Origin: an uncultured Stenotrophomonas sp.
GTDB lineage: Bacteria; Pseudomonadota; Gammaproteobacteria; Xanthomonadales; Xanthomonadaceae
Direction: 5' to 3'
Assembly (NCBI GenBank): GCA_913775725.1
Contig: CAJYNG010000011.1
Span: forward strand, 62,001 to 126,000
Length of the DNA: 64,000 nt
Positions 8,480 to 25,250 of the stretch are shown in pieces. The position numbers and the translations under genes are program-made. The notes beneath the pieces are model-generated. The model searched no databases and was not told the DNA's origin. It worked only from the letters and a program-made list of their open reading frames with translations. Position 1 is the first letter of the stretch. The number at the start of each line of letters is the position of its first letter.

Positions 8480-8502
8480 TCCAGCCCCACCTGCAGTCCT
8501 GA

Positions 8503-8528
8503 AGCCCCGGCATCGTCCGGGGCTTTTT
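8503..8528 (+). terminator. Intrinsic terminator after early phage genes
   Basis: An 8-bp GC stem, AGCCCCGG with CCGGGGCT, loop CATCGT, followed by a T run (TTTTT with the last stem base). It directly follows the gene at 8096-8479 and separates the replication-like genes from the lysis and tail unit. Confidence 0.85.
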
Positions 8529-8532
8529 CGTT

Positions 8533-8718
8533 TCAGGGCCCTCTCGCCTGCATGAGGACAGCCAACGGTGCGTCGTCCTCACCCTGCACCTGCCGCAACC
8601 CCTTGATCTGCTTTTCCTTCCGCCCTGTGAGGACCACGAGTACGAAAGGAGAGGGAAACATCGGTGGCAACAGCCCGCGGTCGCAAAGCACCACACCGTG
8701 CCCTGCTGCACGCCTCAC
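8533..8718 (-). CDS. Possible small hypothetical protein
   Basis: A 61-residue frame on the minus strand with a GTG start and GAGG five bases upstream. The later part (VLVVLTGRKEKQIKGLRQVQ) looks like real protein rather than random translation, and the frame ends by the terminator at 8503. No family is recognised. It is the only candidate gene in the 335 bases between 8480 and 8814 and could equally be spurious. Confidence 0.3.
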   Translation of the reverse strand: MRRAAGHGVVLCDRGLLPPMFPSPFVLVVLTGRKEKQIKGLRQVQGEDDAPLAVLMQARGP

Positions 8719-8763
8719 CCGTCCTCGCGGCGCCGATGAATGTCTTCAGGGCACAAAATCGAA

Positions 8764-8837
8764 AGTAGATGAAAGGTGTTGCCCAGAGAAACGGGATGGC
8801 AACAGTGGAGATCGATGCCACTGACGACACCTTTCAT
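8764..8837. promoter_or_regulatory. Recurrent 18-base element, copy 2, with inverted half-site
   Basis: AGTAGATGAAAGGTGTTG at 8764-8781 is identical to the copy at 6951. An exact inverted copy of its 11-base core, ACACCTTTCAT, lies at 8827-8837, giving an inverted pair about 47 bases apart that spans the start of the Mor-like gene. A second dyad, TGTTGCC with GGCAACA, lies between them. The layout suggests looping or autoregulation of the activator gene. Confidence 0.5.
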
Positions 8838-9264
8838 GAACGCCCTGCCCGACAGCATCCAGACCCTGGCCGAGGTCATCGGCGAATCCGCGGCCCTCAC
8901 GCTGGTGCGTGCATGGCCGCCGACCACCTCCAGCACCACCGGCCGCCACCGCCTCATCGTCTACGTTCCCTCCACCCTGCCCGACCAGCATCGCCTGATC
9001 GATATCCTCGGCTACGACGTCGCCCAGCAGCTGGTCGCGCACTTCGGTGGCGAGCTGCTGTTCCTGGCCTCCTGCTTCGCCGCCGGCGCGCACGAGCGCC
9101 GCGAGCAGATCGCGCGTGCCGTGGCCAGCGGCATGCCGCGCGAACATGTGGCACGTGAGTTCGGTGTCTCGCAGACCACCATCAAGCGCGCCCTGCGCGG
9201 TGCCCGCTCCGCGCCACCGCCGGCGGTCCATCCGGCCCTGCTCAAGGGGTACGCGCGCGCATGA
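8815..9264 (+). CDS. Mor-family transcriptional activator
   Basis: A 149-residue protein with the Mor/C (phage Mu middle and late activator) pattern. An N-terminal dimerisation region (PDSIQTLAEVIGESAALTLV) is followed by the beta strands before DILGYDVAQQLVAHFGGELL, and then a C-terminal HTH (IARAVASGMPREHVAREFGV, with recognition helix SQTTIKRALRG). It is the first gene of the lysis and tail unit and is the obvious candidate to switch it on. Start 8815 has TGGAG four bases away; ATG 8836 has no ribosome site but is possible. The gene after it overlaps by four bases (ATGA). An inverted half-site covers its 5' end, which hints at self-control. Confidence 0.82.
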   Translation: MPLTTPFMNALPDSIQTLAEVIGESAALTLVRAWPPTTSSTTGRHRLIVYVPSTLPDQHRLIDILGYDVAQQLVAHFGGELLFLASCFAAGAHERREQIARAVASGMPREHVAREFGVSQTTIKRALRGARSAPPPAVHPALLKGYARA

Positions 9265-9611
9265 ACGAAAGTGACCTGCTGGCCGGTGTACCGGACTGGG
9301 CCAAGTACCTGGGGGGAACCTCGGGCGTGCTGATCGCTGTATCGCTGTGGCTGCGCCAATGGTTGTCGTCGGCCAAGGTCGACCGTACCGCCGACGAAGC
9401 CACCAGCAACACGCTGCGCACCCTGCAGGAGCAGCTTGCCGCCGAACGCACCCGCGCCGATGGCCTGATGCACGAACGCGAGGCAATGGCGCAGGAGATC
9501 GGCCAGCTGCGCGGCGAGGTCAGCGCCCTGCGCGCACAGATCGTCCAGCAGAGCGTGCAGATAGATGCACTGCTGGCGCTGGTGCGCAAACAGCCGGGAG
9601 CCGCTGCATGA
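9261..9611 (+). CDS. Holin-like membrane protein with coiled coil
   Basis: A 116-residue protein. One hydrophobic segment at about residues 16-33 (YLGGTSGVLIAVSLWLRQWL) is followed by a long heptad-rich helix (about 45-108, e.g. LRTLQEQLAAERTRADGL). Its place directly before the endolysin, with four-base overlaps on both sides, points to the holin slot of a lysis cassette. A single membrane segment plus coiled coil is not a classical holin, so another membrane lysis accessory is possible. Confidence 0.65.
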   Translation: MNESDLLAGVPDWAKYLGGTSGVLIAVSLWLRQWLSSAKVDRTADEATSNTLRTLQEQLAAERTRADGLMHEREAMAQEIGQLRGEVSALRAQIVQQSVQIDALLALVRKQPGAAA

Positions 9612-10093
9612 CCGCCGCCGCAGCCAGTGCCCTCGGCGGCGCCAATGTGGTCGCATTCCTGGACATGCTGGCCGTGTCCGAAGGCACCGACATCCCCAGC
9701 CAGCGCTCGCGTGACCGTGGCTACGACGTGATCGTCGGTGGCCAGCTGTTCAGCGACTACCGCGAGCATCCCCGCGTGCTGGTGTCGCTGCCGCGCTATG
9801 GCATCAAATCCAGCGCCGCCGGTCGCTACCAGTTCCTGCGCAGTACCTGGGATGACCTGCGTGCACGGCTGGGCCTGCCCGACTTCGGCCCGGTTTCGCA
9901 GGATCGCGCAGCGGTCGCGCTGCTCAAGCAGTGCGGGGCCTACGAGCTGATCCGACTGGGACGTTTCGATGCCGCCGTCACCGCGGCCCGGCGCATCTGG
10001 GCGTCGCTGCCCGGCGCCGGCTATGGGCAGAAGGAACATGCGCTGGAAACACTGCGTGCGGCCTACCGCACCGCCGGTGGAGCCCTGCAGTGA
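9608..10093 (+). CDS. Endolysin, lambda R-type lytic transglycosylase
   Basis: A 161-residue protein matching phage lambda R along its length. The segment FLDMLAVSEGTD carries the catalytic Glu; RGYDVIVGGQLFSDYREHPR and SSAAGRYQFLRSTWD follow, then the closing IWASLPGAGYGQKEHALETL. These enzymes cleave murein glycan strands by forming 1,6-anhydro ends. There is no signal peptide, so it needs the upstream holin-like protein for release. In a tailocin cluster its job is to burst the producing cell and release particles. ATG 9608 overlaps the previous stop; the gene ends in an overlap with the GTG of the spanin. Confidence 0.9.
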   Translation: MTAAAASALGGANVVAFLDMLAVSEGTDIPSQRSRDRGYDVIVGGQLFSDYREHPRVLVSLPRYGIKSSAAGRYQFLRSTWDDLRARLGLPDFGPVSQDRAAVALLKQCGAYELIRLGRFDAAVTAARRIWASLPGAGYGQKEHALETLRAAYRTAGGALQ

Positions 10094-10467
10094 CGCCCCT
10101 CGCCCTGCGGTTCCGAATCGGCCTGCTGGTCCTTGCCGGAAGCCACGCAGGCTGCGCCTGGCTGGGGTGGACGCTACGGGACCGCAGCGCAGACCTCGCC
10201 GATGCCAGCGCCCAGGCCACACAGCAGGCATCGCGCGCTGACTCGGTGCAGGCCGCACACCAGCAGAACCTCGCCAATTTCCGTACCGGCGCGCAGGCCG
10301 AATCACAGCGCTTGGCCGCGCAGGCCGAACGCACCCGACAGTTCAACACCCTGCAACAGGACATCGAGACCCATGCCAAGACGCCTGGCCGTGATCGCGG
10401 CGACGCTGATGCTGAGTTCGTGCGCATCTGGCGCGAAGCCAATGCCGGCCGCGCCCTGCCTCGTTGA
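10090..10467 (+). CDS. Rz-like inner-membrane spanin
   Basis: A 125-residue protein starting with GTG at 10090, overlapping the endolysin stop. A single hydrophobic anchor covers about residues 8-28, followed by a long Ala/Gln-rich helical periplasmic part (DASAQATQQASRADSVQAAH) typical of i-spanins. A second frame encoding a lipoprotein begins inside it at 10373, the classical Rz/Rz1 nested arrangement. The pair would bridge inner and outer membranes to complete lysis. Confidence 0.75.
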   Translation: MTPLALRFRIGLLVLAGSHAGCAWLGWTLRDRSADLADASAQATQQASRADSVQAAHQQNLANFRTGAQAESQRLAAQAERTRQFNTLQQDIETHAKTPGRDRGDADAEFVRIWREANAGRALPR

Positions 10468-10720
10468 TCTCAGCATCGCCCCGGCGCAGTTGCGTGCGCC
10501 GGACGAACTGCCGGACCTGCAGGCTGCCACTGATGATGCACTGCTGCGCAATCACGTTGCGGTCGCTCGGCAGTACCACGCGCTGGCCGATCAACTGCGA
10601 GCGCTGCTGTGCAGCCTCGGCAGTCAGCGCGGCATCACCCTCAACGGCGCGGTTCCGGTAACGCCTCCAGGCTGCGGCGTCGCCGCCGGCAACAACCACG
10701 GCGCCGCGCCGGCCTTCTGA
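10373..10720 (+). CDS. Rz1-like outer-membrane lipoprotein spanin
   Basis: A 115-residue protein read in a different frame, with its first 95 bases inside the Rz-like gene. The signal MPRRLAVIAATLMLSSCASG has a clear lipobox (L-S-S-C), so the mature protein begins at Cys17. At 115 residues it is longer than lambda Rz1, as in many P2-type LysC proteins. It partners the upstream i-spanin. The 116 bases after it hold no gene and may contain the promoter of the tail genes. Confidence 0.75.
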   Translation: MPRRLAVIAATLMLSSCASGAKPMPAAPCLVDLSIAPAQLRAPDELPDLQAATDDALLRNHVAVARQYHALADQLRALLCSLGSQRGITLNGAVPVTPPGCGVAAGNNHGAAPAF

Positions 10721-10836
10721 TTCCGCCGCGGGCGGCCACGCCTGCAATGCCATGCCGCTCCGGTGATGGCAACACTGGCTGCAGACCGTGCGTGCCACAC
10801 AGCCACGTCCTTCCACCATTCACTACATGAACTGAT

Positions 10837-11391
10837 ATGGCGACCGACTCCCCCTCTCCGACGCTCGACACACTGCACGGCGCCATCGAAACCGCTATCC
10901 GCGCACGTTTTCCGGACTTCGCAACCGTCGAGTTCTATCGCGAGGCCAGCACCGAAGGCTTGACCACACCGGCCTGCCTGCTGGCACTGACCCGCTGTGA
11001 CCGCAGCCGGGAAGGCAATGACGGCAGCGGACTGCTGCAGGCGGTACTGCGTTTCGAGGCACGCATCGTCGTGGCGGCCGGTAGCACCGCCGGCGCGCTG
11101 CAACTGCGCAATGCCGCGATTGCACTGGCCACCTGGCTGCACCAGCTCGGCCGCTTCCACGGTGCCTCCAGCGGTGCGATCGACGTGATCGCTGCCCTGC
11201 CCGAAGACACCGCAACCGCACAGCCCGGCCTGCGCAGCTGGGTCGTCGAATGGTCGCTGCCAGTCGCGCTGGGCGACAACGCCTGGGACGATGAAGGAGG
11301 CCTAGTGCCGCAGGCGTCCTACAGCTTCGCGCCAGAGATCGGCCGTGCCCATGTGACGCGCTACCAGCCCCTGCCGGAGCGCACGCCATGA
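10837..11391 (+). CDS. Tail terminator/completion-like phage protein
   Basis: A 184-residue protein. It begins with a short helix (TLDTLHGAIETAIRARFP) and then alternating strands and helices. It contains RFEARIVVAAGSTAGALQLR and ends with a W-V-V-E-W-S-L-P-V strand. The pattern resembles DUF1834/gp37-type phage proteins, which cap contractile tails. It occupies the position of P2 genes R and S, just before gene V, with a four-base overlap to V. The family call is tentative; the place in the operon makes a tail-end role likely. Confidence 0.6.
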   Translation: MATDSPSPTLDTLHGAIETAIRARFPDFATVEFYREASTEGLTTPACLLALTRCDRSREGNDGSGLLQAVLRFEARIVVAAGSTAGALQLRNAAIALATWLHQLGRFHGASSGAIDVIAALPEDTATAQPGLRSWVVEWSLPVALGDNAWDDEGGLVPQASYSFAPEIGRAHVTRYQPLPERTP

Positions 11392-11978
11392 GCGTCGAAC
11401 ACGCACGTCTGATCGGCAACCTGCTGATGATCGGTGTGGTGCGCGAGCTGGACGAAGCGGGTGGCCGCGTGCGTGTGGATGCCGATGGCATGCTTACCGA
11501 TTGGATCCCCTGGCTGGAACGCCGGGCCGGACCCGGCGTGCGCAGCTGGTGTGCCCCCGAGCCAGGCGAGCAGGTAGTACTCGCCTGTCCCTATGGCGAC
11601 CCCGGCCAGGCACTCGTACTCGGCAGCCTGTACCAGGACCGGTTCCCGGCGCCCGCCGACTCGCGACTGCGGCACCGCACCGAGTTCGCCGACGGCAGCA
11701 TCGTCGAATACGACCAGGAAACCGGCGCGCTCAACGTCCATGTTGGCGGCGGCAAGGTCATCGTCACCTGCGCGAATGCACAGGTGATCGCCAGCGAATC
11801 GATCGTGCTCGATACGCCCTCGATCAAGGCGACCGGCGATCTGGATGTCAGCGGCGCAATCAGCGCTGGCAAGGACATCAGTACACCCGGCGAGATCAAG
11901 GCCGGTGCCATCGGGCTGAAGGCACACAAGCACACCGCACAGGGGCCGACCGCCCCGACCACGCCGGCGCAGGCCTGA
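11388..11978 (+). CDS. V: Baseplate spike protein V
   Basis: A 196-residue protein. The N-terminal OB-fold region includes WLERRAGPGVRSWCAPEPGE and VVLACPYGDPGQALVLGSLY, the signature of gpV/phage baseplate assembly protein V. A repetitive beta-helical spike follows (IVEYDQETGALNVHVGGGK onward), ending near a metal-binding apex HKH (KAHKHTAQG). The trimer forms the membrane-piercing tip of the contractile tail. The start overlaps the previous gene by four bases. Confidence 0.92.
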   Translation: MSVEHARLIGNLLMIGVVRELDEAGGRVRVDADGMLTDWIPWLERRAGPGVRSWCAPEPGEQVVLACPYGDPGQALVLGSLYQDRFPAPADSRLRHRTEFADGSIVEYDQETGALNVHVGGGKVIVTCANAQVIASESIVLDTPSIKATGDLDVSGAISAGKDISTPGEIKAGAIGLKAHKHTAQGPTAPTTPAQA

Positions 11979-12030
11979 CCGGCCACGCCTGCAATGCCCT
12001 GAAGAAACGCACTCCACGACGATAGAGGCC

Positions 12031-12369
12031 ATGCGAGGAATCGACGCCAACACCGGCAAATCACTGGATGGGCTCGCCCATCTGCACCAGTCCGTGCGTG
12101 ACATTCTCACCACGCCCCTCGGCTCCCGCGTACTGCGCCGCGAATACGGCTCACGCGTGTTCGAACTGATCGATGCGCCGACCAACCGCTCGCTGCGCAT
12201 GGACCTGATCGCGGCCACCGTCGACGCACTCGCGCGATGGGAACCGCGTCTCCACGTCGAGAACGTCGACGTCTCCCTCCCCGCCCCCGGCGTGATGATC
12301 CTGGCAGTGACCGGAATCCACCTGCCCGACGGCGAGGCCATCACCATCGAAGGAATCGAGGTTCGCTAA
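12031..12369 (+). CDS. W: Baseplate wedge protein W (gp25-like)
   Basis: A 112-residue protein of the GPW/gp25 family. The block IRDILTTPLGSRVLRREYGS (here VRDILTTPLGSR) is the hallmark; it ends with strands around VMILAVTGIHLPDG. It builds the inner baseplate ring and starts sheath assembly. The gene lies between V and J exactly as in P2. J begins three bases after its stop. Confidence 0.93.
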   Translation: MRGIDANTGKSLDGLAHLHQSVRDILTTPLGSRVLRREYGSRVFELIDAPTNRSLRMDLIAATVDALARWEPRLHVENVDVSLPAPGVMILAVTGIHLPDGEAITIEGIEVR

Positions 12370-12371
12370 CC

Positions 12372-13268
12372 GTGGCATCCGGCTCGTTCACCAGTGTCAA
12401 TCTCTCCCAGCTGCCTGCACCGGCGGTCATCGAAGTGCTCGATTTCGAAGCCATGTTCGATGAGTCGCTGACCGCGCTTCAGGCCCTGGATCCCACCTTC
12501 GACGCGTTGTTGCCGTCGGACCCGGCCTTCAAGATCCTCGAGGTCTGCACCTACCTGCGCCTGCTCGATCGCCAGCGTGTCAACGACGCCGCGCGTGGCG
12601 TGATGCTGGCTTATGCCGGTGGCAGCGACCTGGACCACCTCGCCGCGATTTTTGGCGTCGTCCGCCAGGTGCTCGACCTGGGCAAACCGCAGGAGGGCAT
12701 TCCTCCTCGATATGAAAGCGATGAGGACTTCCGCCGCCGCATCCAGCTGAGCCCGGAAGGCTTCAGCGTGGCAGGGCCGGAAGGTGCCTATGTATTCCAT
12801 GCGCTGAGCGCGGACCCGCGCGTGCTCGACGCCAGTGCGACCAGTCCAGTACCTGGCGAAGTGGTGGTCTCGGTGCTGTCGCGCGAAGCGGATGGAACCG
12901 CCACCCAGGGCCTGCTCGACATCGTCGAGGCGAAGCTGAGCGCGGATGACGTGCGACCGCTGACCGATCACGTCGTGGTGAAATCCGCTGCCATCGTCAA
13001 CTACTCGGTTGACGCCGCACTTTTCACCTTTGCCGGCCCGGATTCGCAGGTGGTGCTGGCCGAAGCGCGCACCCGCCTTGACCGCTACATCAGCGAATCG
13101 CATCGGCTCGGCCGTGACGTCACCCGTTCGGGACTGTTCGCCGCACTGCATGCCGAGGGCGTGCAGCGCGTGGAGATCACCAGCCCGGCAAGGGACATCG
13201 TGGTCGATCGCACCCAGGCCACGCATTGCACCAGCATCACGCTGACCCATGGCGGCAATGATGAGTGA
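12372..13268 (+). CDS. J: Baseplate protein J
   Basis: A 298-residue protein with the gpJ pattern: an N-terminal helical part (LEVCTYLRLLDRQRVNDAAR), then Y-A-G-G-S-D-L-D-H-L-A, followed by E-S-D-E-D-F-R-R-R-I-Q-L and the P-G-E-V-V-V-S-V-L-S-R strand motif. The start is GTG 12372, three bases after W. It forms the outer wedge of the baseplate with I. The last eight bases overlap the start of I. Confidence 0.92.
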   Translation: MASGSFTSVNLSQLPAPAVIEVLDFEAMFDESLTALQALDPTFDALLPSDPAFKILEVCTYLRLLDRQRVNDAARGVMLAYAGGSDLDHLAAIFGVVRQVLDLGKPQEGIPPRYESDEDFRRRIQLSPEGFSVAGPEGAYVFHALSADPRVLDASATSPVPGEVVVSVLSREADGTATQGLLDIVEAKLSADDVRPLTDHVVVKSAAIVNYSVDAALFTFAGPDSQVVLAEARTRLDRYISESHRLGRDVTRSGLFAALHAEGVQRVEITSPARDIVVDRTQATHCTSITLTHGGNDE

Positions 13269-14040
13269 CGCTACCACCCGCATGATCGGCGCGCGTCTGC
13301 GCGGTGCCATCGATGGGCAAAACCGCACCTTCCGTCACCCAGGTGGTGCACTGGCGACCTTGCAGGCGGTGTACCGCACCGATGCGCACGGGCGGCAGCC
13401 ACTGCAGGGGGTCGTCATCGAGGGCAGCATGGTCGCCCTGGCCACTGCACCGGCGCCCGGCGAGGTCATCGATGGTGACGCCCGGGTGGTGGTGCCCTCG
13501 GCGGCGAACCTGCTTCCCGCCAACGCCACCCACGCCGAGCGCGCGCTTGCCCGCGCCATCGTTGCTCGTCCGTTGCCGGTGGACATCACCGCGCTGTGGG
13601 ATGCCGACCGCTGTCCGACCGCACTGCTGCCCTGGCTTGCCTGGGCACTGTCGGTGGACGAATGGAAAGCCTACTGGCCCGAAGCCGTGAAGCGCGCCCG
13701 GGTGCGTACGGCCATCGCCATCCAGCGACGCAAGGGCACCGCCGGCAGCGTGCGTGACGTGGTAGCCGCCTTCGGTGGCTCGGTGCTGATCCGCGAGTGG
13801 TGGCAGCTGCAGCCCAAGGGCGCACCGCACACCTTCGAAGCCGTAATGACCATCGCCAACCAGGGTGGCCAAGCCGCAACGGCCATGTTCGTCGAGGACG
13901 TCATCGGCGAGATCAGCCGGACCAAGCCGGTGCGATCGCACTTCACCTTCACCCAGGGCATGCAGGCCGACGCCGCCATCGGCGCACTTGCAGCCGCCTA
14001 CGCCACGGCCTTCCGCCGCCTTCAACTGATCGGAGAGTAA
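13261..14040 (+). CDS. I: Tail protein I with extra N-terminal domain
   Basis: A 259-residue protein. From about residue 83 it is a normal P2 gpI: LLPANATHAERAL, then LPWLAWALSVDEW, and KGTAGSVRDVVAAFGG. The first 80 residues (IDGQNRTFRHPGGALATLQA onward) are an additional mostly beta segment that ordinary gpI lacks. It may be a fibre-docking or adaptor module. ATG 13261 is chosen, with in-frame ATG codons at 13249 and 13258 as alternatives. It overlaps J and precedes the tail fibre by seven bases. Confidence 0.88.
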   Translation: MSDATTRMIGARLRGAIDGQNRTFRHPGGALATLQAVYRTDAHGRQPLQGVVIEGSMVALATAPAPGEVIDGDARVVVPSAANLLPANATHAERALARAIVARPLPVDITALWDADRCPTALLPWLAWALSVDEWKAYWPEAVKRARVRTAIAIQRRKGTAGSVRDVVAAFGGSVLIREWWQLQPKGAPHTFEAVMTIANQGGQAATAMFVEDVIGEISRTKPVRSHFTFTQGMQADAAIGALAAAYATAFRRLQLIGE

Positions 14041-14047
14041 CCCCCGC

Positions 14048-16153
14048 ATGCGCTTGAAAATCACCGATGCCGGCTTCGCCAAGCTGGTCAATCCGCCGAA
14101 CACCGGCACCAATGCCGTCCTGGTGACCCAGATCGGCCTGACCTCGACCGCCTTCGTGCCTTCGGCGGGGCTCACCGCACTGCCCGGCGAAATCAAGCGC
14201 GTGGCCACGTTCGGCGGCCAGGCCGTGGGTGATGACACCGTGCACGTCACCATCCGCGACGACAGCGCCACCTCTTACACGCTACGCGGGTTCGGCCTGT
14301 ACCTGGCTGACGGCACCCTGTTCGCCAGCTACGGCCAGGCCGATCCGATCATGGAGAAGTCGGCCGCATCGATGCTGCTGCTGGCCACCGACACACGCTT
14401 CAGCGGGATCGACACGACGCAGATCCAGTTCGGCGATGCCGGCTTCCTCTATCCACCGGCCACCACCGAGATCGTCGGCGTGGTCGAGCTGGCCACCAGC
14501 ACCGAAGCCGAAGATGCGACCGACAGCCAGCGCGCGGTTACCCCGCGCGGCCTGCGCGCCTACACCGACAAGCGTTTCGGCGCCAGCGCCCCGACCGCGC
14601 TGGCGAAGACGCTGCTGTCTGCGGCAAACACCAACGCGGCGCGCACGGCGCTGGAGCTGAAGAGTGCTGCGCTGAAGGACACCGGGCATGGCAACGGCCT
14701 GGACGCCGACACCCTGGACGGCAAGCACGCCTCCGAGTTCGCCCTGGCCGGTGACTTCGCTACCGTGGGCCACAAGCATGTGATTGCTGATGTGACCGGG
14801 CTGCAGCCGGCACTGGATGGCAAGGCATCCAGGGGCGGCAACACGTACACCGACCAGCAGTTCATCAGCGGCACGTATCCCTTGATGGGCTTCGGTGCCG
14901 CCGGCGCCGAGCAGTCCTTCATTGGCGGCTGGGGTAATTCCAGCCTGTGGCGCGTATGGAGCGCGGACCGCAGTGCCAGTAGTGAGATCACCATCAAGCA
15001 TGGCGACACGCCGCGCTGGAACGGCTCTGTGATGTGGCATGCCGGGAACTTCGCGCCCGACACGAAGATGGACAAGACCGGCGGCACCTTCAGTGGCACC
15101 GTCACTATTTCCAACAACTCCCTGCGCCTGTCCGGCTGGGGCAGTACCGCGACCGATGGTGTCGTCTACTTCGGCACGGGTGACAGTTATCTCTTCAAGT
15201 CCGGATCCACGTTCACTTTCCGCAATCTGGAAGGGGCGTACACGGCTACGCTCAATGCAGGCGGAACTGTCTGGACCAGCGGCAATTTCGATCCAAGCAA
15301 GAAGCTCAGTATCACCGGCGGAGACCTGACCGGTCCGCTTCGGATGCGAGGCAACGCCGCAGGTCGTATCGCGCTCTATGACGACAACCTGGATGTCGCC
15401 AACCTCGAGATCGGTGCCGGTCTCAACACCGGCACCGACCGCAATGGCTTTCTGGTCAACCGAAATGCGAACGGCTCGCTTGCACTGCTTGGAGGCAACG
15501 GAAAAGTCAAGGTAACCGTGGATGGCGGCGTCGGGTACACCGTACTTTCCTCCCCACCGCTCGGAACCGGATTGTGGAACGCCCAGACCGCCCTGCACTG
15601 CGTGATTCCACACGGCGGCAATGCAGACGGCATGAAGGCAACGCTGCTACGGACCGTAAGTGGTGCAAATGGCTGGTCCTCCGCGCGGTGGCGTCTGTAC
15701 CGTGAGGTCGACGCTACGACGCAGGGCTACATCGACTTCCACGGTGACAGCACCGACGGTGACCGGGTCTTCACGTTCGGGGGTTATGGGCAGTCATTCT
15801 GGCTTTCGAAGACAGGTGTCGTGGAAGCTCCCGCGGGATTCAACCGTCCTTCGTCGCGCAAGCTGAAGTCGGACCATCCGCTGACACCCCTGAGCTACGG
15901 CCTGGCGGAAATCGAAAAGATTGAAACCTATGTCGGCCAGTACAACTCGGATTTCGTGAACGATGAGCGTCGCCGACTCTTCATGATTGCAGAGCAGCTC
16001 TCCGAAATCGTACCCGAAGCAGTCTTCGAGAATGCCGTCGACTACCGCGGTGAGAAAGTGCCGTCGATCCAGGAGTCGCAGCTGATTCCTGTCTTGGTTC
16101 GCGCCATCCAGGAACTGGCTGCGGAGATCAGGTCGCTAAAGGGAGGGAACTGA
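14048..16153 (+). CDS. Tail fibre with C-terminal S74 intramolecular chaperone domain
   Basis: A 701-residue receptor-binding fibre. The N-terminal about 150 residues (MRLKITDAGFAKLVNP onward) form the baseplate-attachment part common to P2-type fibres. The middle is repetitive, with DTLDGKHASEFA and two copies of the V/M-W-x-(A/S)-G-N-F motif. The C-terminal 100 residues (SRKLKSDHPLTPLSYGLAEI, then IAEQLSEIVPEAV) match the peptidase S74 intramolecular chaperone, which helps the trimer fold and then cuts itself off. That would explain the lack of a separate Tfa/gpG chaperone. From about 15100 base use is less GC-rich than in the neighbours, a usual sign of exchange at host-range regions. This protein should set the killing spectrum. 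Confidence 0.88.
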   Translation: MRLKITDAGFAKLVNPPNTGTNAVLVTQIGLTSTAFVPSAGLTALPGEIKRVATFGGQAVGDDTVHVTIRDDSATSYTLRGFGLYLADGTLFASYGQADPIMEKSAASMLLLATDTRFSGIDTTQIQFGDAGFLYPPATTEIVGVVELATSTEAEDATDSQRAVTPRGLRAYTDKRFGASAPTALAKTLLSAANTNAARTALELKSAALKDTGHGNGLDADTLDGKHASEFALAGDFATVGHKHVIADVTGLQPALDGKASRGGNTYTDQQFISGTYPLMGFGAAGAEQSFIGGWGNSSLWRVWSADRSASSEITIKHGDTPRWNGSVMWHAGNFAPDTKMDKTGGTFSGTVTISNNSLRLSGWGSTATDGVVYFGTGDSYLFKSGSTFTFRNLEGAYTATLNAGGTVWTSGNFDPSKKLSITGGDLTGPLRMRGNAAGRIALYDDNLDVANLEIGAGLNTGTDRNGFLVNRNANGSLALLGGNGKVKVTVDGGVGYTVLSSPPLGTGLWNAQTALHCVIPHGGNADGMKATLLRTVSGANGWSSARWRLYREVDATTQGYIDFHGDSTDGDRVFTFGGYGQSFWLSKTGVVEAPAGFNRPSSRKLKSDHPLTPLSYGLAEIEKIETYVGQYNSDFVNDERRRLFMIAEQLSEIVPEAVFENAVDYRGEKVPSIQESQLIPVLVRAIQELAAEIRSLKGGN

Positions 16154-16154
16154 C

Positions 16155-16814: not shown

Positions 16815-16920
16815 TCGATCAGCGGGCCACCGCTGCAATTATCCCGACAACCACATTCTCCGAACATTACCCCGTCGCCTGCACAAGCCGGCACACACCC
16901 ACAGCGAGGAAGAACCCCGA

Positions 16921-18123
16921 ATGACCGAATTTCTCCATGGCGTACAGGTCGTCAACATCGACACCGGTGCCCGTTCGATTGCCATCGCCTCCAGCAGCGT
17001 GATCGGCATCGTCGGCACCGCACCGCTGGCTGATACCGAAGCGTTTCCCATCAACACCCCAGTCCTGGTGACCTCGCTTTCGCAGGCTGCCAAGCTGTCG
17101 GCCAAGACCGGTGCTGAAGCCGGCACGCTGCCAGGCGCACTCGATGCGATCTTCGATCAGTCCAGTGCCGTCGTCGTCGTCATCCGTGTCGAGAACGGCG
17201 CCAACGAAGGCGCCACCCTGGCCAACGTGCTCGGCGGCGTGGACGCACAGACCGGTGCCTACAAGGGCGTGCATTCCCTGCTGGCGGCCAAGTCCATCGT
17301 TGGCGTCAAGCCGCGCATCCTGGTCGCACCGGGCTTCACCCATGTGCACCCCGCCGATCCGGCCAAGCCGGAGGCCGTACTGGCCAACCCGGTCGTGGCC
17401 GAACTGCTCGGCATCGCCGACAAGTTGCGCGCGGTGATCATCAAGGATGGTCCGAACAGCACCGACGACGCTGCCAAGAGCACCACCGCCCTGACCGGTT
17501 CCAAGCGCGTCTACGTGGTCGACCCGGCGCTGCTGGTGCAGTCCGGTGATGCCATCGTCACCCGCTACGCCTCCGCTGCCGTGGCCGGCGCCATCGCCCG
17601 CAGCGACAACGAACGCGGCTGGTGGGCGTCGCCGTCGAACCTGGAGCTCAACGGCGTGGTCGGTACCGCGCGTGCGATCGACTTCGGCCTGTCCGACGCG
17701 ACCAGCCGCGCCAACCTGCTGAACCAGTCGAACGTGGCCACGGTCATCCGCGAAGGAGGCTTCCGCCTGTGGGGCAACCGCACCACCAGCAGCGACCAGA
17801 AGTGGCAGTTCCTGTGCGTGGTGCGCACCGCCGACATCATCGCCGACAGCCTGGAAGCCGCCCACCTGTGGGCCGTCGACCGCGGCATCAGCAAGACCTA
17901 CGTCGATGACGTGCGCGAGGGTGTCAACGCCTTCCTGCGCGGCCTGAAGACCCAAGGGGCGATCCTCGGCGGCAACTGCTGGATCGACCCGGAACTGAAC
18001 GCAGCGGACAGCGTGGCCCAGGGCCGCTTCTATTGGGACTTCGACTTCACCCCGACCTACCCGGGTGAGCAGCTGACCTTCCGCATGCACATGAACAACA
18101 ACTACGTCTCGGAGATCTTCTAA
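16921..18123 (+). CDS. FI: Contractile tail sheath protein FI
   Basis: A 400-residue sheath protein of the P2 FI family. The N-terminus (FLHGVQVVNIDTGAR) and the SSVIGIVGTAP block are typical. Later it shows SNLELNGVVGTARAIDFGLS and LWGNRTTSSDQKWQFLCVVR, and the C-terminus has WIDPELN and TPTYPGEQLTFRMHMNNNYV. It contracts to drive the tube into the target cell. A good ribosome site (GAGGAAG) precedes it, and the 106-base gap upstream may hold a second tail promoter. Confidence 0.95.
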   Translation: MTEFLHGVQVVNIDTGARSIAIASSSVIGIVGTAPLADTEAFPINTPVLVTSLSQAAKLSAKTGAEAGTLPGALDAIFDQSSAVVVVIRVENGANEGATLANVLGGVDAQTGAYKGVHSLLAAKSIVGVKPRILVAPGFTHVHPADPAKPEAVLANPVVAELLGIADKLRAVIIKDGPNSTDDAAKSTTALTGSKRVYVVDPALLVQSGDAIVTRYASAAVAGAIARSDNERGWWASPSNLELNGVVGTARAIDFGLSDATSRANLLNQSNVATVIREGGFRLWGNRTTSSDQKWQFLCVVRTADIIADSLEAAHLWAVDRGISKTYVDDVREGVNAFLRGLKTQGAILGGNCWIDPELNAADSVAQGRFYWDFDFTPTYPGEQLTFRMHMNNNYVSEIF

Positions 18124-18125
18124 GC

Positions 18126-18629
18126 ATGGCGCGCAAGATCCGCAAGAACTTCAACTTCTACGTCGACGGCAAGGGCTATGCCGGCAGCGTGATGTCTTTC
18201 ACCGCACCGAAGCTGTCGCTGAAGACCGAGGACTTCCAGGCCGGCGGCATGCTCGCCCCGACCGAGATCGTGCTCGGCCATGAAAAGCTGACCGCCGATG
18301 TCGAGTTCGCCTCCGACGACGCGGAGATCATGAGCAAATTCCACGTCGTTGAAAGCAAGGAATACGGCTTCACGGCCCGCGAGGCGCTGGAAGGCGATGA
18401 CGGCGAAGTGACCCAGGTCGTGCACAACATGCGCGGCAAGGTGAAGCTGCTGGACCGCGGCGAAACCAAGGTCGGCGAGAAGGGCACGATCAAGGTCAAC
18501 CTGGCGCTGAGCTACTACAAGCTGACCCATGGCGCCCAGGTCGTGCAGGAGATCGACGTGGTCAACATGATCGCGCGCCAGGGTGGCGTGGACGTGCTGG
18601 CCGGCATCCGCGGCGCGCTGGGCATCTGA
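18126..18629 (+). CDS. FII: Tail tube protein FII
   Basis: A 167-residue protein of the P2 FII major tail tube family. It starts MARKIRKNFNFYVDG, includes GYAGSVMSFTAPKLSLKTED and the C-terminal LALSYYKLTHGAQVVQEID. Stacked hexamers form the inner tube around the tape measure. It is two bases after FI, so sheath and tube are made together. Confidence 0.95.
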   Translation: MARKIRKNFNFYVDGKGYAGSVMSFTAPKLSLKTEDFQAGGMLAPTEIVLGHEKLTADVEFASDDAEIMSKFHVVESKEYGFTAREALEGDDGEVTQVVHNMRGKVKLLDRGETKVGEKGTIKVNLALSYYKLTHGAQVVQEIDVVNMIARQGGVDVLAGIRGALGI

Positions 18630-18652
18630 GCCCACCCCGCACCGAGAAACCC

Positions 18653-18671
18653 GGGGGCGCCTCGCGCCCCC
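18653..18671 (+). terminator. Strong GC hairpin between FII and E
   Basis: A perfect 8-bp stem, GGGGGCGC with GCGCCCCC around CTC, with no T run. It sits between the highly needed sheath/tube genes and the low-copy E/T genes, where partial termination or RNA protection would set the ratio. The role is inferred from position. Confidence 0.5.
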
Positions 18672-18709
18672 GCATCCATCGCACCACATCGCCTTCCAGG
18701 AACGCATCC

Positions 18710-19000
18710 ATGTCCAGCAAGACCAAGACCACCACCGACTCCGTCATCGAGCGCGATGGCTTTGCCGAGATCACCCTCACCCGCCCGCGCCAGGTCAACG
18801 GCATGGAGACCGCCGTGCTGCGCATGCGCGAACCGACCGTGGAAGACATGGAGCGCTACCAGGACGACAAGGGCAGTGATGCGCAGCGCGAGGTACGGAT
18901 GATCGCCAACCTGTGCGAGATCTCGCCGGAAGACGTGCGCAAGATGCCGTTGCGCGACTACGCCCGACTGCAGGCAGGCGTCGCGCTTTTTACCACCTGA
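18710..19000 (+). CDS. E: Tail assembly chaperone E
   Basis: A 96-residue protein of the P2 gpE type. It has the strand EITLTRPRQVNGMETAVLRM followed by helices around MIANLCEISPEDVRKMPLRD. It ends at a run of five T (18987-18991) just before the stop, the usual place for a programmed -1 frameshift into E'. The chaperone coats the tape measure during tail assembly. Confidence 0.9.
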   Translation: MSSKTKTTTDSVIERDGFAEITLTRPRQVNGMETAVLRMREPTVEDMERYQDDKGSDAQREVRMIANLCEISPEDVRKMPLRDYARLQAGVALFTT

Positions 19001-19131
19001 CCCTGCCGCAGATCAGGCAGGGAGTGCTCGCCCTGGCCGGACATACCGGCTGGGGCCTGCGCGAGATCATGACGCTGCGGGTGTCGAAGTTCATCTGGTG
19101 GATTCAGGGATTGCCGGTACATGGCCAATAA
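18985..19131 (+). CDS. E' extension made by -1 frameshift
   Basis: Reading in the -1 frame from the T run continues as AFYHLTLPQIRQGVLALAGH and ends near FIWWIQGLPVHGQ, a stretch with a Trp-rich end like known gpE' tails. It has no ribosome site of its own and cannot be reached except by slippage from E. The TTT codon can re-pair with TTT after a one-base backward shift. The frame ends at TAA 19131, overlapping the start of the tape measure gene by 11 bases. Confidence 0.75.
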   Translation, partial: AFYHLTLPQIRQGVLALAGHTGWGLREIMTLRVSKFIWWIQGLPVHGQ

Positions 19132-21592
19132 CGTTCAAACGACAACGATCACGATCGGCGGATCAGTCTCCAAGTCGCTGAAGGACGCATTGTCCTTCGC
19201 CAACGATGGCGTGAAGCGCCTCGGCGATGAAGCCGGCAAGCTGGAGCTCAAGCTCGCCGCGATGCAGAAGTCAGGCACCGCGTACACCCGCATGCGCGCG
19301 CAGGCCGATGCGCTGCGCGCCTCACAGGAAGCGCTGGAGCGTGTCGAAGCCAAGCGCACCGCCAACCTGGAGAAACGCGAGAAGCTCGGCGCTTCGTTCA
19401 AGGCAGCGCGCGGCACACTCGGCACCGCCGTCACCGCACTGGCCAAGCCGGTCGAGAACGCCTCCGGCTTCGCCCGTCAGAACCAGCAGATCGGCGTAGC
19501 GGCCAACCTCAGCCGCGCCCAGGTCAGCGCACTTGGCCAGGCGATCCTGGAACAATCGCGCGCGACCAACCAGGGGGCCGACGATCTGCAACGCTCGATC
19601 AAGCTGATGGTCGCTGCCGGCATGGATGCGCAGTCGGCCCAGGCCAGCCTCGGTGCTGTCGGGCGGACCACCACCGTCACCGGTGCCAGCATCGATGACG
19701 TCGCCAAGGCGGCCGCCAGCCTGCAGCGCTCATTCGACATCGATCCGGCACGCATGCAGAACGCGCTGGACGTGCTGGTGGTAAACAGCCAGCAGGGCAG
19801 CCTGGGCCTGAAGGACATGGCCCAGGTGCTGCCGGTGCTGGGTTCCTCGTTCGAGGCGATGAAGCTGCAGGGCACGTCGGCGGCGGCTACGCTGGGTGCG
19901 GCACTGGAGGCCACACTGGATTCGGCCGGCGGCGCCGACAAGGCCGCCAGCAACATGAAGAGCTTCATGTCCGAGGTGCTCTCGCCGGACATTCAGGAGA
20001 AGGCCAGGAAGAGTCTGAACCTGGATCTGCGCAAGATCATCGGCGATGCACAGACCAGCGGCGGCAATCCCTTCGATGCTGCGATGCAGGGGATCATCCA
20101 GGCGACTGCGGGCGACCAGAAGAAGATCGGCACCCTGTTCAGCGATGCACAGGCGAAGAACTTCGTCCAGCCGATGATCGAGAACTGGGACACCTACATC
20201 CGTGTCCGCGACAAGGCCTTGAATGGATCGGCGGGTACCACCGATGCGGCCTATGCCGACGCGATGCAGACCGATCCGCAGAAGATCGAAGGCGCCAAGA
20301 TCGCCGTGGACAACCTGTCCAAGGCGTTCGGTGCGGCGCTGCTGCCCGCGGTGGGCGAGGCCGCGGTCAAGCTGACCGAGCTGTTGAACGGGGTTACCTC
20401 GTTCGTGCAGGAAAACCCGAAGCTGATCGCCAACACCACGCAGATCGTGGTCGGCATGCTGGGCATGCGCACGGCGGTACTCGGCGCTCGCTACGCCTGG
20501 ACCTTCCTGCAGGGCCCGATCCTGGGCGTGCAGAAGGCCTTCCAGCTGTTCCGCGGTGGCAGCCTGCTGGCACAGATGGGGCGCTTCGGGCCGATGGCCA
20601 TGCGCCTGGCATCGGGCTTCCGCATCGTCGCCACTGCCGTGGCCGCCATCGGTGGCGGGCCGATCACGATCGCCATCGCAGCGATCACCGCAGGCGCCAT
20701 CCTGGTGCGCAAATACTGGGAGCCGATCAAGGCATTCCTCGGAGGACTCTGGCAGGGGGTGAGCGACTCCGCCGGTGCCGCGATGGGCGAGATCATGGCC
20801 GCTGTCGAGCCACTGCGCCCGGTCTGGGAGGCAATGGGCGAAGTGTTCAGCCGGGTATGGAACTGGATCAGCCAGCTGATCGCACCGGTCGAATACAGCG
20901 GCGATGCACTCTCGCGTGTTGGCGAAGTGGGCCGCTTCGTCGGCACCCTGCTGTTTGAAAGTTTCCGCATGGCGATCGCTGCCGTCGGCAACATCATCCA
21001 AACCATCGTATTCCTCAATGATGCGGCGATGTCCCTGGGCGAAACCATTGGTACCGCGCTGATCGGCAGGTGGGATTCGATGAAGGAGACTGCCCGCGCC
21101 GCGATCAACGTGGTAATGGATGCACTGAAGCCCCTGCTGGAGCTGATCGATGGTCCACTGAGTGATCTGGGAGGGCTTGTCGGCAAGGGTCTGAACGTTG
21201 CGTCAGGCTTTCTGGGGCAGCTCAAGGAAGGCGCAGTCGACGGCATGAAGAGCATCGGCAACGGTGTGGTTGGATACAGCAACATGCGTGCCCAGGGCCG
21301 AGGCGGCCTGAACGATGCGTTGTATACCGGTGTTGCGGTGGCAATGGGTGACAGGCCCGCCGTCCTGGAGCAGGAGGACAGCCTGCGCCGCGCCATGCAG
21401 GGCCGTCCTGCACCCGACATGCCCGCGCCCTCTCCGCGCGGCGTCACCACCGTGCAGCAGCAACAGACCAACAACATCACCATCCACCAGCAACCCGGTG
21501 AGTCCAGCGAATCGGTGGCACGTCGCACGGCCGATGAACTGCAGCGTCGCAACGCGGTTGCTGCCCGTGGTGGCCTGGCAGACAGGAACTAA
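19121..21592 (+). CDS. T: Tape measure protein T
   Basis: An 823-residue tail length ruler. The N-terminal 100 residues form a coiled coil (LKDALSFANDGVKRLGDEAG onward). The conserved TIGR01760-like block follows (VAANLSRAQVSALGQAILEQ, then LMVAAGMDAQSAQASLGAVG and FKAM-type LGSSFEAMKLQGT). Hydrophobic segments lie near residues 440-530 (IVATAVAAIGGGPITIAIAA), and the C-terminus has a Gln/Asn-rich patch (TVQQQQTNNITIHQQ). In contractile tails the length of this protein sets the length of the tube. It starts inside E'. Confidence 0.93.
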   Translation: MANNVQTTTITIGGSVSKSLKDALSFANDGVKRLGDEAGKLELKLAAMQKSGTAYTRMRAQADALRASQEALERVEAKRTANLEKREKLGASFKAARGTLGTAVTALAKPVENASGFARQNQQIGVAANLSRAQVSALGQAILEQSRATNQGADDLQRSIKLMVAAGMDAQSAQASLGAVGRTTTVTGASIDDVAKAAASLQRSFDIDPARMQNALDVLVVNSQQGSLGLKDMAQVLPVLGSSFEAMKLQGTSAAATLGAALEATLDSAGGADKAASNMKSFMSEVLSPDIQEKARKSLNLDLRKIIGDAQTSGGNPFDAAMQGIIQATAGDQKKIGTLFSDAQAKNFVQPMIENWDTYIRVRDKALNGSAGTTDAAYADAMQTDPQKIEGAKIAVDNLSKAFGAALLPAVGEAAVKLTELLNGVTSFVQENPKLIANTTQIVVGMLGMRTAVLGARYAWTFLQGPILGVQKAFQLFRGGSLLAQMGRFGPMAMRLASGFRIVATAVAAIGGGPITIAIAAITAGAILVRKYWEPIKAFLGGLWQGVSDSAGAAMGEIMAAVEPLRPVWEAMGEVFSRVWNWISQLIAPVEYSGDALSRVGEVGRFVGTLLFESFRMAIAAVGNIIQTIVFLNDAAMSLGETIGTALIGRWDSMKETARAAINVVMDALKPLLELIDGPLSDLGGLVGKGLNVASGFLGQLKEGAVDGMKSIGNGVVGYSNMRAQGRGGLNDALYTGVAVAMGDRPAVLEQEDSLRRAMQGRPAPDMPAPSPRGVTTVQQQQTNNITIHQQPGESSESVARRTADELQRRNAVAARGGLADRN

Positions 21593-21594
21593 GC

Positions 21595-22062
21595 ATGAAG
21601 CGCGAGTTCGTAACCGCATCCATCGACAAGCTGTTGTCCAGCTTCCAGAGCAACGATTCCGGCAACGCCCCGGTGCTGCTGATGCTGGGTGGCTTCAAGT
21701 TCAGCCTCAACACCGCCGTGTTCCAGGAGATCCAGCAGAGCAACGAATATGGCTGGGCTGCGCAGGAGCGCATCGGGCAGATGGCCGCCCTGCAGTACAC
21801 CGGCCCCGGCAAGGCCAGCATGACGCTGCCCGGCATCATCCACTATCAGTTCCGGGGTGCCGGCAATGAGCTCTCGCAGCTGCGCAAGCTGGCGGCACAG
21901 GGCAAGCCCCAGCGGCTGCTGACCGGCAAGGGCGGAAACCTGGGCCTGTGGGTCATCGACAAGATCGATGCCACCGCCTCCGGATTCACCGTCGATGCGG
22001 GAATCCAGCGGCACGAATTCACCCTCTCCCTGCGGAAGCACAGCGATGGCACGAACGTATAA
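21595..22062 (+). CDS. U: Tail protein U
   Basis: A 155-residue protein of the P2 gpU family, with the motif MLMLGGFKFSLNTAVFQEIQ-type (here LLMLGGFKFSLNTAVFQEIQ) and the block LQYTGPGKASMTLPGIIH. It links baseplate hub and tube. The start is two bases after T and the end overlaps X by 17 bases. Confidence 0.93.
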   Translation: MKREFVTASIDKLLSSFQSNDSGNAPVLLMLGGFKFSLNTAVFQEIQQSNEYGWAAQERIGQMAALQYTGPGKASMTLPGIIHYQFRGAGNELSQLRKLAAQGKPQRLLTGKGGNLGLWVIDKIDATASGFTVDAGIQRHEFTLSLRKHSDGTNV

Positions 22063-22261
22063 CACCCGCGACGGCGACGTCGTTGACCGCATCGCGTATG
22101 CGCACTATGGCGAACAATCACCGGCCATCCTGCGCGCAGTGTTCGACGCCAACCCGGGCCTGGCCGCGCGCGGCGCGGTACTGCCTGCGGGCCTGGCGAT
22201 CACCCTGCCCGAGGTGCAGCGCCCCGCCGGCGAACGCAAGGGAGTGGCCCTGTGGGATTGA
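22046..22261 (+). CDS. X: Tail protein X (LysM-like)
   Basis: A 71-residue protein. YNTRDGDVVDRIAYAHYG followed by ILRAVFDANPGLAARG and LPAGLAITLP is the typical gpX/LysM-like pattern, a small murein-binding fold in the baseplate hub. It overlaps both U and D, consistent with tight coupling. Confidence 0.92.
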   Translation: MARTYNTRDGDVVDRIAYAHYGEQSPAILRAVFDANPGLAARGAVLPAGLAITLPEVQRPAGERKGVALWD

Positions 22262-23325
22262 ACATCGCACCGGCATTCCGCGTGGTGGCCAACAGCCAGG
22301 ACATCACCGACAAGATCAGGTCGCGCTTCAAGTCGCTGCGGATCACCGACGAGACCGACAACAACTCGGACATGCTGGAGCTGCAGCTGGCCGACCATGA
22401 TCCGTCCGATCCGATCCAGCTGCCGCCGGCAGGCGCGGAGCTGGAAGCCTTCATCGGCTACGACGGCGAAGTGCGGCGCATGGGCCTGTACATCTGCGAC
22501 GAGGTGGAGATTTCCGGCTACCCGGGCAGCATGACCCTGCGTGCCCGCGCGGCGCCGTTCGAGGCCAGCAAGGGCGGCAAGAACGATCTGCAGACGCAGA
22601 AGACACGCACCTGGAAGAAGGGCACGACCATCGGCGGCATGGTGCAACGCATGGCAGGCGAACACGGAATGAGCGCTGCCGTGAGCGGATCGCTGGCGTC
22701 GATCGCGCTGCCGCTGACGGTGCAGTCGCAGGAGTCGGACATGAACCTGCTGCTGCGCCTGGCCAAGCAGCATGACGCCATCGCCAAGCCGGGCGGCGGC
22801 CGCCTGATGTTCGTCAAACGGGGTGAATCCACCAGCGCCAGTGGCGAGCGCATTCCCGACGTCACCCTTACCCCCGCCGATGGCAGTGGCTACAAAGTGA
22901 GCATCGTCTCGCGCGAGAAAACCGGCACCACCATCGCCTACTACCGCGATGTACGCGGTGCCACACGCCAGGAGGTGAAGTTGGGCAGCGGTGAACCGAT
23001 CGTACGCCTGCGCATGGCCTACGCCGACCGCGAAACCGCCGAAGCCGCAGCACGCGCCAAGCATCAGGAACAAGCCCGGCAGACGCGTACGCTCAGCTAC
23101 ACCCTGCCCGGCCGCGAGACGCTGATGGCCGAAGCCACAGTGGTGATGCAGGGTTTCCGCGATGGCGTGGATGGGCAGTGGCTGGTCAAGCGCGCCGAGC
23201 ACAACATCAGCCACGACGGCTACGTGACCAGCATCGAGTGCGAACAACCCAACAGTGCCGATGCAGTGAAGGCGGCCAGCAGTGCGGCAGCTACCGAAGG
23301 TGAGCAGGTTGGCAGCGAGGTGTAG
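22252..23325 (+). CDS. D: Late control protein D (baseplate hub)
   Basis: A 357-residue protein of the gpD hub family, equivalent to T4 gp27. It starts with GTG inside X (MGLNIAPAFRVVANSQDITD), contains the DNNSDMLELQLADHDPSDPI block, and later SKGGKNDLQTQKTRTWKKGT and QSQESDMNLLLRLAKQHDAI. It trimerises to hold the spike V. It is the last tail gene; no ogr-type zinc-finger activator follows, unlike in P2. Confidence 0.93.
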   Translation: MGLNIAPAFRVVANSQDITDKIRSRFKSLRITDETDNNSDMLELQLADHDPSDPIQLPPAGAELEAFIGYDGEVRRMGLYICDEVEISGYPGSMTLRARAAPFEASKGGKNDLQTQKTRTWKKGTTIGGMVQRMAGEHGMSAAVSGSLASIALPLTVQSQESDMNLLLRLAKQHDAIAKPGGGRLMFVKRGESTSASGERIPDVTLTPADGSGYKVSIVSREKTGTTIAYYRDVRGATRQEVKLGSGEPIVRLRMAYADRETAEAAARAKHQEQARQTRTLSYTLPGRETLMAEATVVMQGFRDGVDGQWLVKRAEHNISHDGYVTSIECEQPNSADAVKAASSAAATEGEQVGSEV

Positions 23326-23392
23326 ATCCAGGCAGGGTGCGGATGCGGCACTCCCGATCCAGTTGCTGTAACACTGCTACGACCTGCCGGCG

Positions 23393-25237: not shown

Positions 25238-25250
25238 TATGCGAGGCAAC

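Follow-up and report, generated by a model that had tools for sequence, protein, structure and literature searches.

A headless phage-tail gene unit of an uncultured Stenotrophomonas is very probably an R-type tailocin of the maltocin kind

The window analysed here is a stretch of 64,000 nucleotides from the genome of an uncultured Stenotrophomonas sp. (assembly GCA_913775725.1, contig CAJYNG010000011.1; 4.56 Mb in 28 contigs, the window being C11:62001-126000). It carries a conserved unit of 19,763 bp (3,563-23,325, 65.5% GC), running from the gene of an Acb2-like protein through the tail gene D. Judging from its genes, this unit is very probably an R-type tailocin fixed in the chromosome and of the maltocin P28/S16/K279a kind, and its function as a tail is near certain. 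The headline is not new: the unit is a new allele of an already known weapon, of which the borders, the probable phage ancestry and the co-conserved early module are now described.

Profile searches yield an unbroken series of plus-strand genes between 8.8 and 23.3 kb, from a Mor-type activator through D. Pfam and phrog profiles agree on the tail and lysis genes, and on their order, that the original prediction had named from the letters of the sequence. Two genes were missing from that list (10837-11391 and 16155-16814), and the calls of Rz1 and E' are visible in translation (a lipobox and an open -1 frame, respectively) but have no match in Pfam. Contractile sheath, tube, baseplate and tape measure are all present with open frames:

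8836-9264, plus strand: Mor-type late transcription activator (PF08765, E 2e-6; phrog_836, E 4.8e-29)
9261-9611, plus strand: holin candidate (phrog_2658 'hol-like chemotaxis', E 2.5e-29)
9608-10093, plus strand: endolysin, maltocin ORF8 / LysSM type (phrog_90, E 9.3e-50; P28 primers)
10090-10467, plus strand: Rz spanin (phrog_24812, E 1.8e-60; weak Rz profiles)
10373-10720, plus strand: Rz1 lipoprotein, overlapping Rz in a different frame (lipobox LSSCAS)
10837-11391, plus strand: phrog_1072 protein (E 1.1e-43)
11388-11978, plus strand: V, baseplate spike (Phage_base_V, E 1.8e-15; Phage_spike, E 6.8e-7)
12031-12369, plus strand: W, baseplate wedge (GPW_gp25, E 8.3e-15)
12372-13268, plus strand: J, baseplate (Baseplate_J, E 1e-22)
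13249-14040, plus strand: I, tail protein (Tail_P2_I, E 8.1e-45)
14048-16153, plus strand: tail fibre, class A (phrog_8443, E 3.5e-207)
16155-16814, plus strand: phrog_11610 protein (E 5.1e-94)
16921-18123, plus strand: FI, contractile sheath (Phage_sheath_1, E 3.1e-20; Phage_sheath_1C, E 4.5e-23)
18126-18629, plus strand: FII, tail tube (Phage_tube, E 4e-44)
18710-19000, plus strand: E, tail assembly chaperone (Phage_TAC_7, E 5.7e-21)
-1 frame of E, plus strand: E', which would reach 19131
19121-21592, plus strand: T, tape measure of 823 amino acids (PhageMin_Tail, E 7.2e-15)
21595-22062, plus strand: U (Phage_P2_GpU, E 4.7e-31)
22046-22261, plus strand: X (Phage_tail_X, E 2.9e-17)
22252-23325, plus strand: D, baseplate hub (Phage_GPD, E 5.3e-12; phrog_52, E 8.8e-113)

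Searching 91 genomes of the genus for the sheath gave a match in 24. Fifteen of these, the own genome included, are at least 88% identical and are hereafter called the carriers; the others are G037 (about 65%) and eight weaker matches. Among relatives with a name, S. maltophilia, S. geniculata and an uncultured Stenotrophomonas have a sheath of 87-97% identity. In all 14 other carriers the unit is headless and occupies the same site, with a TonB-receptor gene to its left and a tautomerase gene to its right; holB comes next within the fetched stretch in 13 of them, and in G044 it lies farther away on the same chromosome.

A head was sought at several levels. Capsid, portal, terminase and integrase genes are absent between 3.4 and 25.3 kb among the scanned proteins (small intergenic open reading frames (ORFs) were outside the scan), as had been predicted. 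The gap between Rz and the phrog_1072 gene counts 370 bp in the window and 333-379 bp in the 14 other carriers; a head can therefore not fit there. As to heads supplied by a helper, the portal, capsid and terminase profiles PF04860, PF05125, PF05136 and PF05876 all lack a match in the 4.56-Mb assembly, whereas they matched 4, 1, 3 and 3 of 14 control genomes. A PF05136 portal is found elsewhere in the genome of four of the 14 other carriers (G024, G015, G003 and G034).

Selection apparently keeps the unit across relatives. Between the window and each of the 14 other carriers, the alignments of eighteen genes cover more than 95% of the gene length and are free of stops. The median ratio of nonsynonymous to synonymous substitution (dN/dS, calculated without the zinc-finger gene, Rz1 and E') ranges from 0.03 for the holin candidate, the lowest, to 0.35 for the tape measure, with 0.10 for VapE, 0.06 for the Acb2-like gene and 0.15 for the sheath; four flank genes give 0.04-0.12. 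V measures 196 amino acids in all 14, and I has a short form (264-287 amino acids stop to stop) in ten and a long form (438) in four. The lone stop in the alignment of the deoxynucleoside monophosphate (dNMP) kinase, in G032, lies upstream of the likely start. No tail gene is decaying in any of these relatives, and the claim that intact frames point to selection rather than decay holds. The start of the unit had to be moved, though, from 8815 to 3563: a minus-strand gene pair followed by VapE, orf75, dNMP kinase and phrog_23491 genes is present in 14 of 14 close relatives.

The identity with the published maltocins rests on primers, size and ORF count, and a report on two further strains, which together with the headless conserved unit support the maltocin-like reading of the original prediction. 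Cores of the endolysin P28 primers (given in the available part of PMC4656821) align at 9611 and 10076, each carrying a single mismatch. According to the accessible text of PMC8228603, maltocin P28 (KC787694, S. maltophilia) has 19,919 bp, 66.2% GC and 23 ORFs, is inducible with mitomycin C and kills 38 of 81 strains, and maltocin S16 (MH703584, S. maltophilia) has 19,658 bp, 66.3% GC and 23 ORFs. The unit agrees with this pattern (about 19.7-19.9 kb, 66%, 23 ORFs), the count hinging on which overlapping genes are included. The same cluster type is present in K279a (smlt1035-1065) and strain 44/98, where ciprofloxacin induces strongly, explosive lysis needs the endolysin and the cluster is likened to that of R-type pyocins (PMC13393414, in the part available).

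Several points weigh against a tailocin. Presence is patchy (15 of 91 genomes), and the primase-helicase and dNMP kinase genes are intact even though neither is required for a tail. Every dN/dS value comes from a pairwise comparison with the window, so the values are not independent, and overlapping genes (the orf75/dNMP kinase frame and Rz/Rz1) bias their own values. The head search of the own genome covers four families, and other head types might lie elsewhere in it. Finally, release, induction and killing by this strain are predicted from the published maltocins.

Of the rival explanations, a decaying P2-like prophage, with the head lost by chance and the remainder eroding, would account for the missing integrase and head and for a gene order that points to temperate phage descent. 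Against it, in all 14 near relatives the tail genes stand open at the same location, their dN/dS is far below 1 and the locus is headless, and the fibre variation consists of alleles, not breakage; we consider decay very unlikely. It is highly improbable, too, that the unit is a tail-bearing satellite which borrows helper-phage heads and is replicated by VapE and the dNMP kinase. The intact VapE-type primase-helicase, dNMP kinase and Mor genes would suit such an element, but integrase, terminase and head-tail attachment genes were not found among the scanned proteins, the chromosomal site is the same in 14 of 14 others, and the own genome lacks a match to the four head families. Moreover, the border stretches compared share no repeat longer than 7 bases (a packaging signal was not looked for), and the published P28 particles are, in the available text of PMC8228603, without genetic material.

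Sheath, tube and baseplate are also common to extracellular contractile injection systems, which deliver an effector and are not pore-making like a tailocin, and the product of 16155-16814 matches phrog_11610, a family with no assigned function. Such a system is nevertheless scarcely conceivable here: the P2-like gene set comes with Mor and a phage lysis cassette, and, Rz1 and E' excepted, every gene from Mor to D has a match among phage families. We thus retain the R-type tailocin of the maltocin kind.

The tailocin occupies a defined slot on the chromosome. Both flanks were recovered in 19 of 20 non-carriers fetched, and the equivalents of window positions 3451 and 23862 lie 28-115 bp apart in 12 of these 19 and about 1.9 kb apart in the other seven. 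In these seven the slot holds two plus-strand genes, for a protein of 364-365 amino acids and a lipoprotein-like protein of 192-222. Only the G036 protein of the seven pairs was scanned for the XVIPCD domain: here (L040, pair of 1.88 kb) the 365-residue protein carries an X-Tfes XVIPCD domain (PF20410, E 4.9e-7, above cut-off). In xanthomonads, this domain is the mark of effectors that the antibacterial type IV secretion system delivers, and in its layout the slot pair resembles such an effector with its immunity protein. No literature combining XVIPCD and tailocin was found. Homologous recombination in the flanks likely exchanges the slot contents, which would explain why host-flank and unit distances correlate only partially (0.62), why the flank tree interleaves carriers with non-carriers, and why early-gene and late-gene trees disagree.

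Two other explanations of the site were rejected. Insertion at tRNA-Val (25,293) does not hold, as non-carriers join 3451 to 23862 and the tRNA side varies as a spot of its own; border repeats acting as att sites do not either, at most 7 bases being common to 3441-3570 and three right-hand stretches. At the right border, a GTAG-type repeat-like sequence at 23320-23350, possibly of what we take to be the S. maltophilia GTAG repeat family, overlaps the stop codon of D, and several non-carriers have a comparable hairpin (GTAGATCCACGCCATGCGTGGATG or nearly so) at the matching border. A DUF6393-like gene (23393-23815, minus strand, below the Pfam cut-off) lies between D and the tautomerase gene and is not counted to the unit; among the 15 carriers it is present in the window, G090, G061 and G003 only, with a dN/dS of 0.69. 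The separate variable spot spans 24244-25500 beside tRNA-Val (25293-25367): among 32 relatives measured the distance from the tautomerase gene to a PilZ-like gene varies from 420 to 13,353 bp (1,258 in the window). A C4 antisense RNA at 24668-24770, also outside the unit, precedes an ORF of 142 amino acids.

Within the unit, a conserved tail carries variable receptor-binding fibres, of which the 15 carriers have two classes (A, the window plus eight; B, six). Between the classes, identity is 75-83% over the N-terminal 231 residues and only 18-24% over the remainder, and the C-terminal part of class A fibres shows 49-84% identity within the class. The phrog_11610 protein is encoded in eight of eight other class A carriers and in none of the six of class B, and is a probable fibre partner travelling with class A fibres. 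In the early-gene tree, the window clusters with the class B carriers G003, G090 and G061. Because a class A unit here groups with class B carriers, fibres move independently of the early genes; such mobility and variation would fit a role in the killing spectrum.

Upstream of the late genes the unit holds an early module:

3563-3817, minus strand: Acb2-like protein of 84 amino acids, anti-CBASS nucleotide-sponge family (Acb2_Tad1_hairpin, E 1.3e-4, below cut-off)
3829-4053, minus strand: small four-cysteine protein (no match in Pfam)
4542-6878 (ORF list start 4506), plus strand: VapE-type primase-helicase with Toprim, 778 amino acids (VapE-like_dom, E 2e-48; Toprim_3; phrog_2249, E 1.7e-196)
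7035-7262, plus strand: orf75, a conserved small protein whose gene overlaps the dNMP kinase frame in its longest reading
7336-7941 (likely start 7336), plus strand: deoxynucleoside monophosphate kinase (DNMK, E 2.1e-10; phrog_139, E 2.7e-42)
8096-8479, plus strand: phrog_23491 protein (E 2.6e-81)

The early genes for the Acb2-like protein, zinc finger, VapE and dNMP kinase look retained and still constrained; the VapE frame is open in all 14 other carriers. The four-cysteine protein, by eye presumably a TraR/DksA-like zinc finger, is 86-97% identical in all 14 other carriers, and its homologues adjoin Acb2 in the loci L142, L144 and L067. Orf75 shows 85-97% identity in the same 14 and has a homologue in L142; phrog_23491 homologues occur in the viral contigs L139-L142 and L144.

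Among the 91 genus genomes, the Acb2-like gene turned up in the 15 maltocin carriers and in no other; its product is 95-100% identical in all 14 carriers besides the window. The protein resembles the p26 chains 8h2j/8ixz of PDB (E about 6e-5), which we take to be Acb2, and its homologue in L142 scores above the Pfam cut-off; this points to membership of the Acb2 family, with a fold predicted from sequence. Residue Y11 of Acb2 has no aligned residue in the window protein and A15 stands opposite K26 (both presumably of the dinucleotide pocket), whereas R58 (in DPERWL) stands opposite R67, presumably of the trinucleotide pocket. Acb2 has separate sites for dinucleotides and trinucleotides, the former made with the N-terminal helix (PMC12043709, available part). 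Self-protection of the producer against CBASS is not supported by the SMODS cyclase profile, which represents only part of the cyclase families: its matches do not track the carriers, occurring in 3 of 15 of them and in 7 of the 76 other genomes (Fisher p 0.36), and the own genome has no match. The literature pairs Acb2 with tailocin solely in a meeting report, with the terms in separate talks, and the words Acb2, VapE and helicase are absent from the main text of PMC13393414.

A shared box precedes three transcription units:

4363-4371, plus strand: AAGGTGTTG upstream of vapE (exact in 14 of 15 carriers, G032 excepted)
6960-6968, plus strand: AAGGTGTTG upstream of orf75/dNMP kinase (exact in 15 of 15)
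8773-8781, plus strand: AAGGTGTTG upstream of mor (exact in 15 of 15)

All three boxes are thus exact in 14 of 15 carriers, with two in G032 and an additional minus-strand copy in G015. Under a first-order Markov model of the unit, 280 of 300 runs gave no copy and 20 gave one; the non-carrier stretches fetched hold 0-2 copies each, the two strands taken together. A longer core, AGTAGATGAAAGGTGTTGAC, is found ahead of orf75 in 13 of 15 carriers and ahead of mor in 11 of 15; its end may correspond to a -35 box. The mor site of the window lacks this core and ends in CC. No exact AAGGTGTTG lies upstream of vapE or mor in L142, L144, L140 and L158, where one reverse-strand near-match was seen (L140). 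Elsewhere in the window, an ORF of 3,634 amino acids (49769-60673, minus strand) contains eight more exact copies on the opposite strand. Classical SOS control was rejected: TTAG-N6-TACTA, presumably the Xanthomonas-type LexA box consensus, is absent from the window within one mismatch. A near-match to CTGT-N8-ACAG (one mismatch) is present at 5721, inside vapE.

The ancestor looks like a temperate phage that lost its integrase, recombination and head blocks. This is suggested by G095 (L142, a 41-kb IMG/VR contig), which shares the early gene order and has a lambda-type portal between its lysis and sheath genes. The contig encodes, in order, integrase, SSB, Acb2, zinc finger, VapE, phrog_23491, Mor, holin and Rz, then a PF05136 portal (15518-16543) and a sheath (5268-6467) 66% identical to that of the unit, all on a single strand from VapE on. 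Unlike the unit it has the integrase, SSB and portal genes and an AAA gene beside the zinc finger. More generally, among the best 80 of 249 VapE relatives in viral contigs, relatives at 54-62% identity adjoin relatives of the early and lysis genes in the same order. In the Caballeronia fortuita prophage L067, the genes phrog_1072, V, W, J and I, then FI, FII, E, T, U, X and D stand as in the unit, but portal, HK97-type capsid and head-tail attachment genes, which the unit lacks, are present. The term 'P2-type' of the original prediction consequently fits the tail gene order, the nearest headed relatives seen having a lambda-type portal. The ancestral phage would have combined integrase, SSB, Acb2, recombination genes, VapE, Mor, lysis genes and a lambda-type portal with a P2-like tail.

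Wider searches place the headless state among relatives. A scan based on J gave at least 80 loci; 83 were examined (75 new and 8 chosen), four re-found loci being left outside. Twenty of the 83 combine a J relative below 70% identity with a phrog_1072 relative and with a distance of over 4 kb between J and the start of the locus; head probes match 19 of these, L278 being the exception. Loci without a phrog_1072 relative mostly have no head-probe match (exceptions L256, L261 and L140, the last with terminase). In headed relatives phrog_1072 relatives accompany head-tail attachment and capsid genes, and the phrog_1072 protein is probably a tail completion or terminator protein capping the tube. 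On its gene content, the metagenomic contig L158 (J 75%, VapE 68%) is a more distant headless relative: its phrog_1072 gene follows the endolysin gene at a distance of 733 bp, and no head intervenes. When 395 genomes drawn from the family were searched, matches at E 1e-90 or better came from six of this genus plus G253 (59%), which has head genes. G037, not one of the carriers, has a PF05136 portal about 10 kb from its own sheath; this headed prophage (L024, L039) has tail genes mostly 40-66% identical to those of the maltocin, with the sheath match split in two.

The lysis cassette deserves a separate remark. The cluster has been described as lacking a definitive holin, with ORF 01031, nine ORFs off the endolysin ORF 01022, as the proposed one (PMC13393414, available part). 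The gene at 9261-9611, directly ahead of the endolysin, would be a better-placed candidate; its product has a single N-terminal hydrophobic stretch (hydropathy peak 1.12, residue 13) followed by a probable coiled coil.

Taken together, a course of action can be proposed. DNA damage would switch on the early transcription units via a regulator acting at the shared boxes, so that early genes and Mor are expressed first; Mor, by analogy with its families, would then switch on the lysis and tail genes. Contractile tails would assemble around the 823-residue tape measure, the phrog_1072 product capping the tube, and the cell would burst through holin, endolysin and Rz/Rz1. The released tails would pierce the envelope of susceptible related bacteria and thereby kill them. 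A more far-reaching view, which we put forward as doubtful, is that the maltocin is a domesticated phage programme still using its early module. The shared box would fire three units together, induction would be followed by a local rise in template number through VapE and the dNMP kinase, and the Acb2-like protein, restricted to cyclic trinucleotides, would block a nucleotide-signalled suicide of the producer until the tails are finished. The slot would then be a weapon exchange site, swapping the tailocin for a type IV effector-immunity pair via recombination in the flanks.

The locus makes four questions testable: for what reason the genes of a replicative primase-helicase and of a relative of nucleotide sponges stay under constraint in a tailocin, how maltocin induction is controlled with a shared box present and an SOS box not found, where the holin of a maltocin cluster is located, and how one slot alternates between two apparent kinds of antibacterial weapon.

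Among known systems, R-type pyocins of Pseudomonas aeruginosa share the P2-like contractile tail, lysis cassette, variable fibre and lack of a head. The unit differs in its Mor-type activator, no pyocin-style repressor being seen, and in retaining VapE primase-helicase, dNMP kinase and Acb2-like genes, which pyocins, to our knowledge, lack. Phage Smp131 and other Stenotrophomonas P2-like prophages have the P2-like organisation in common with the unit, but Smp131, as far as its available description goes, is a full phage with a family-19 chitinase-type lysin that integrates at tRNA-Thr. The eight weaker sheath matches in the genus, which cover most of the query at merely 36-38% identity, may represent such prophages. 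A 22-kb megablast query had no match among 50,697 phage records. The available portions of the maltocin descriptions make no mention of an Acb2-like gene, a conserved VapE, a shared box, two fibre classes, descent from a phage with a lambda-type portal or slot polymorphism. The likeness to P28, S16 and K279a is closest: the genus and, by primers, the endolysin are the same, and unit size, GC and ORF count are close. The maltocin endolysin is ORF8 of 23, which fits our own count with Acb2-like, zinc finger, VapE, dNMP kinase, phrog_23491, Mor and holin genes ahead of it (orf75, Rz1 and E' being omitted). Compared with P28 and S16, the unit described here would be the allele of another strain.

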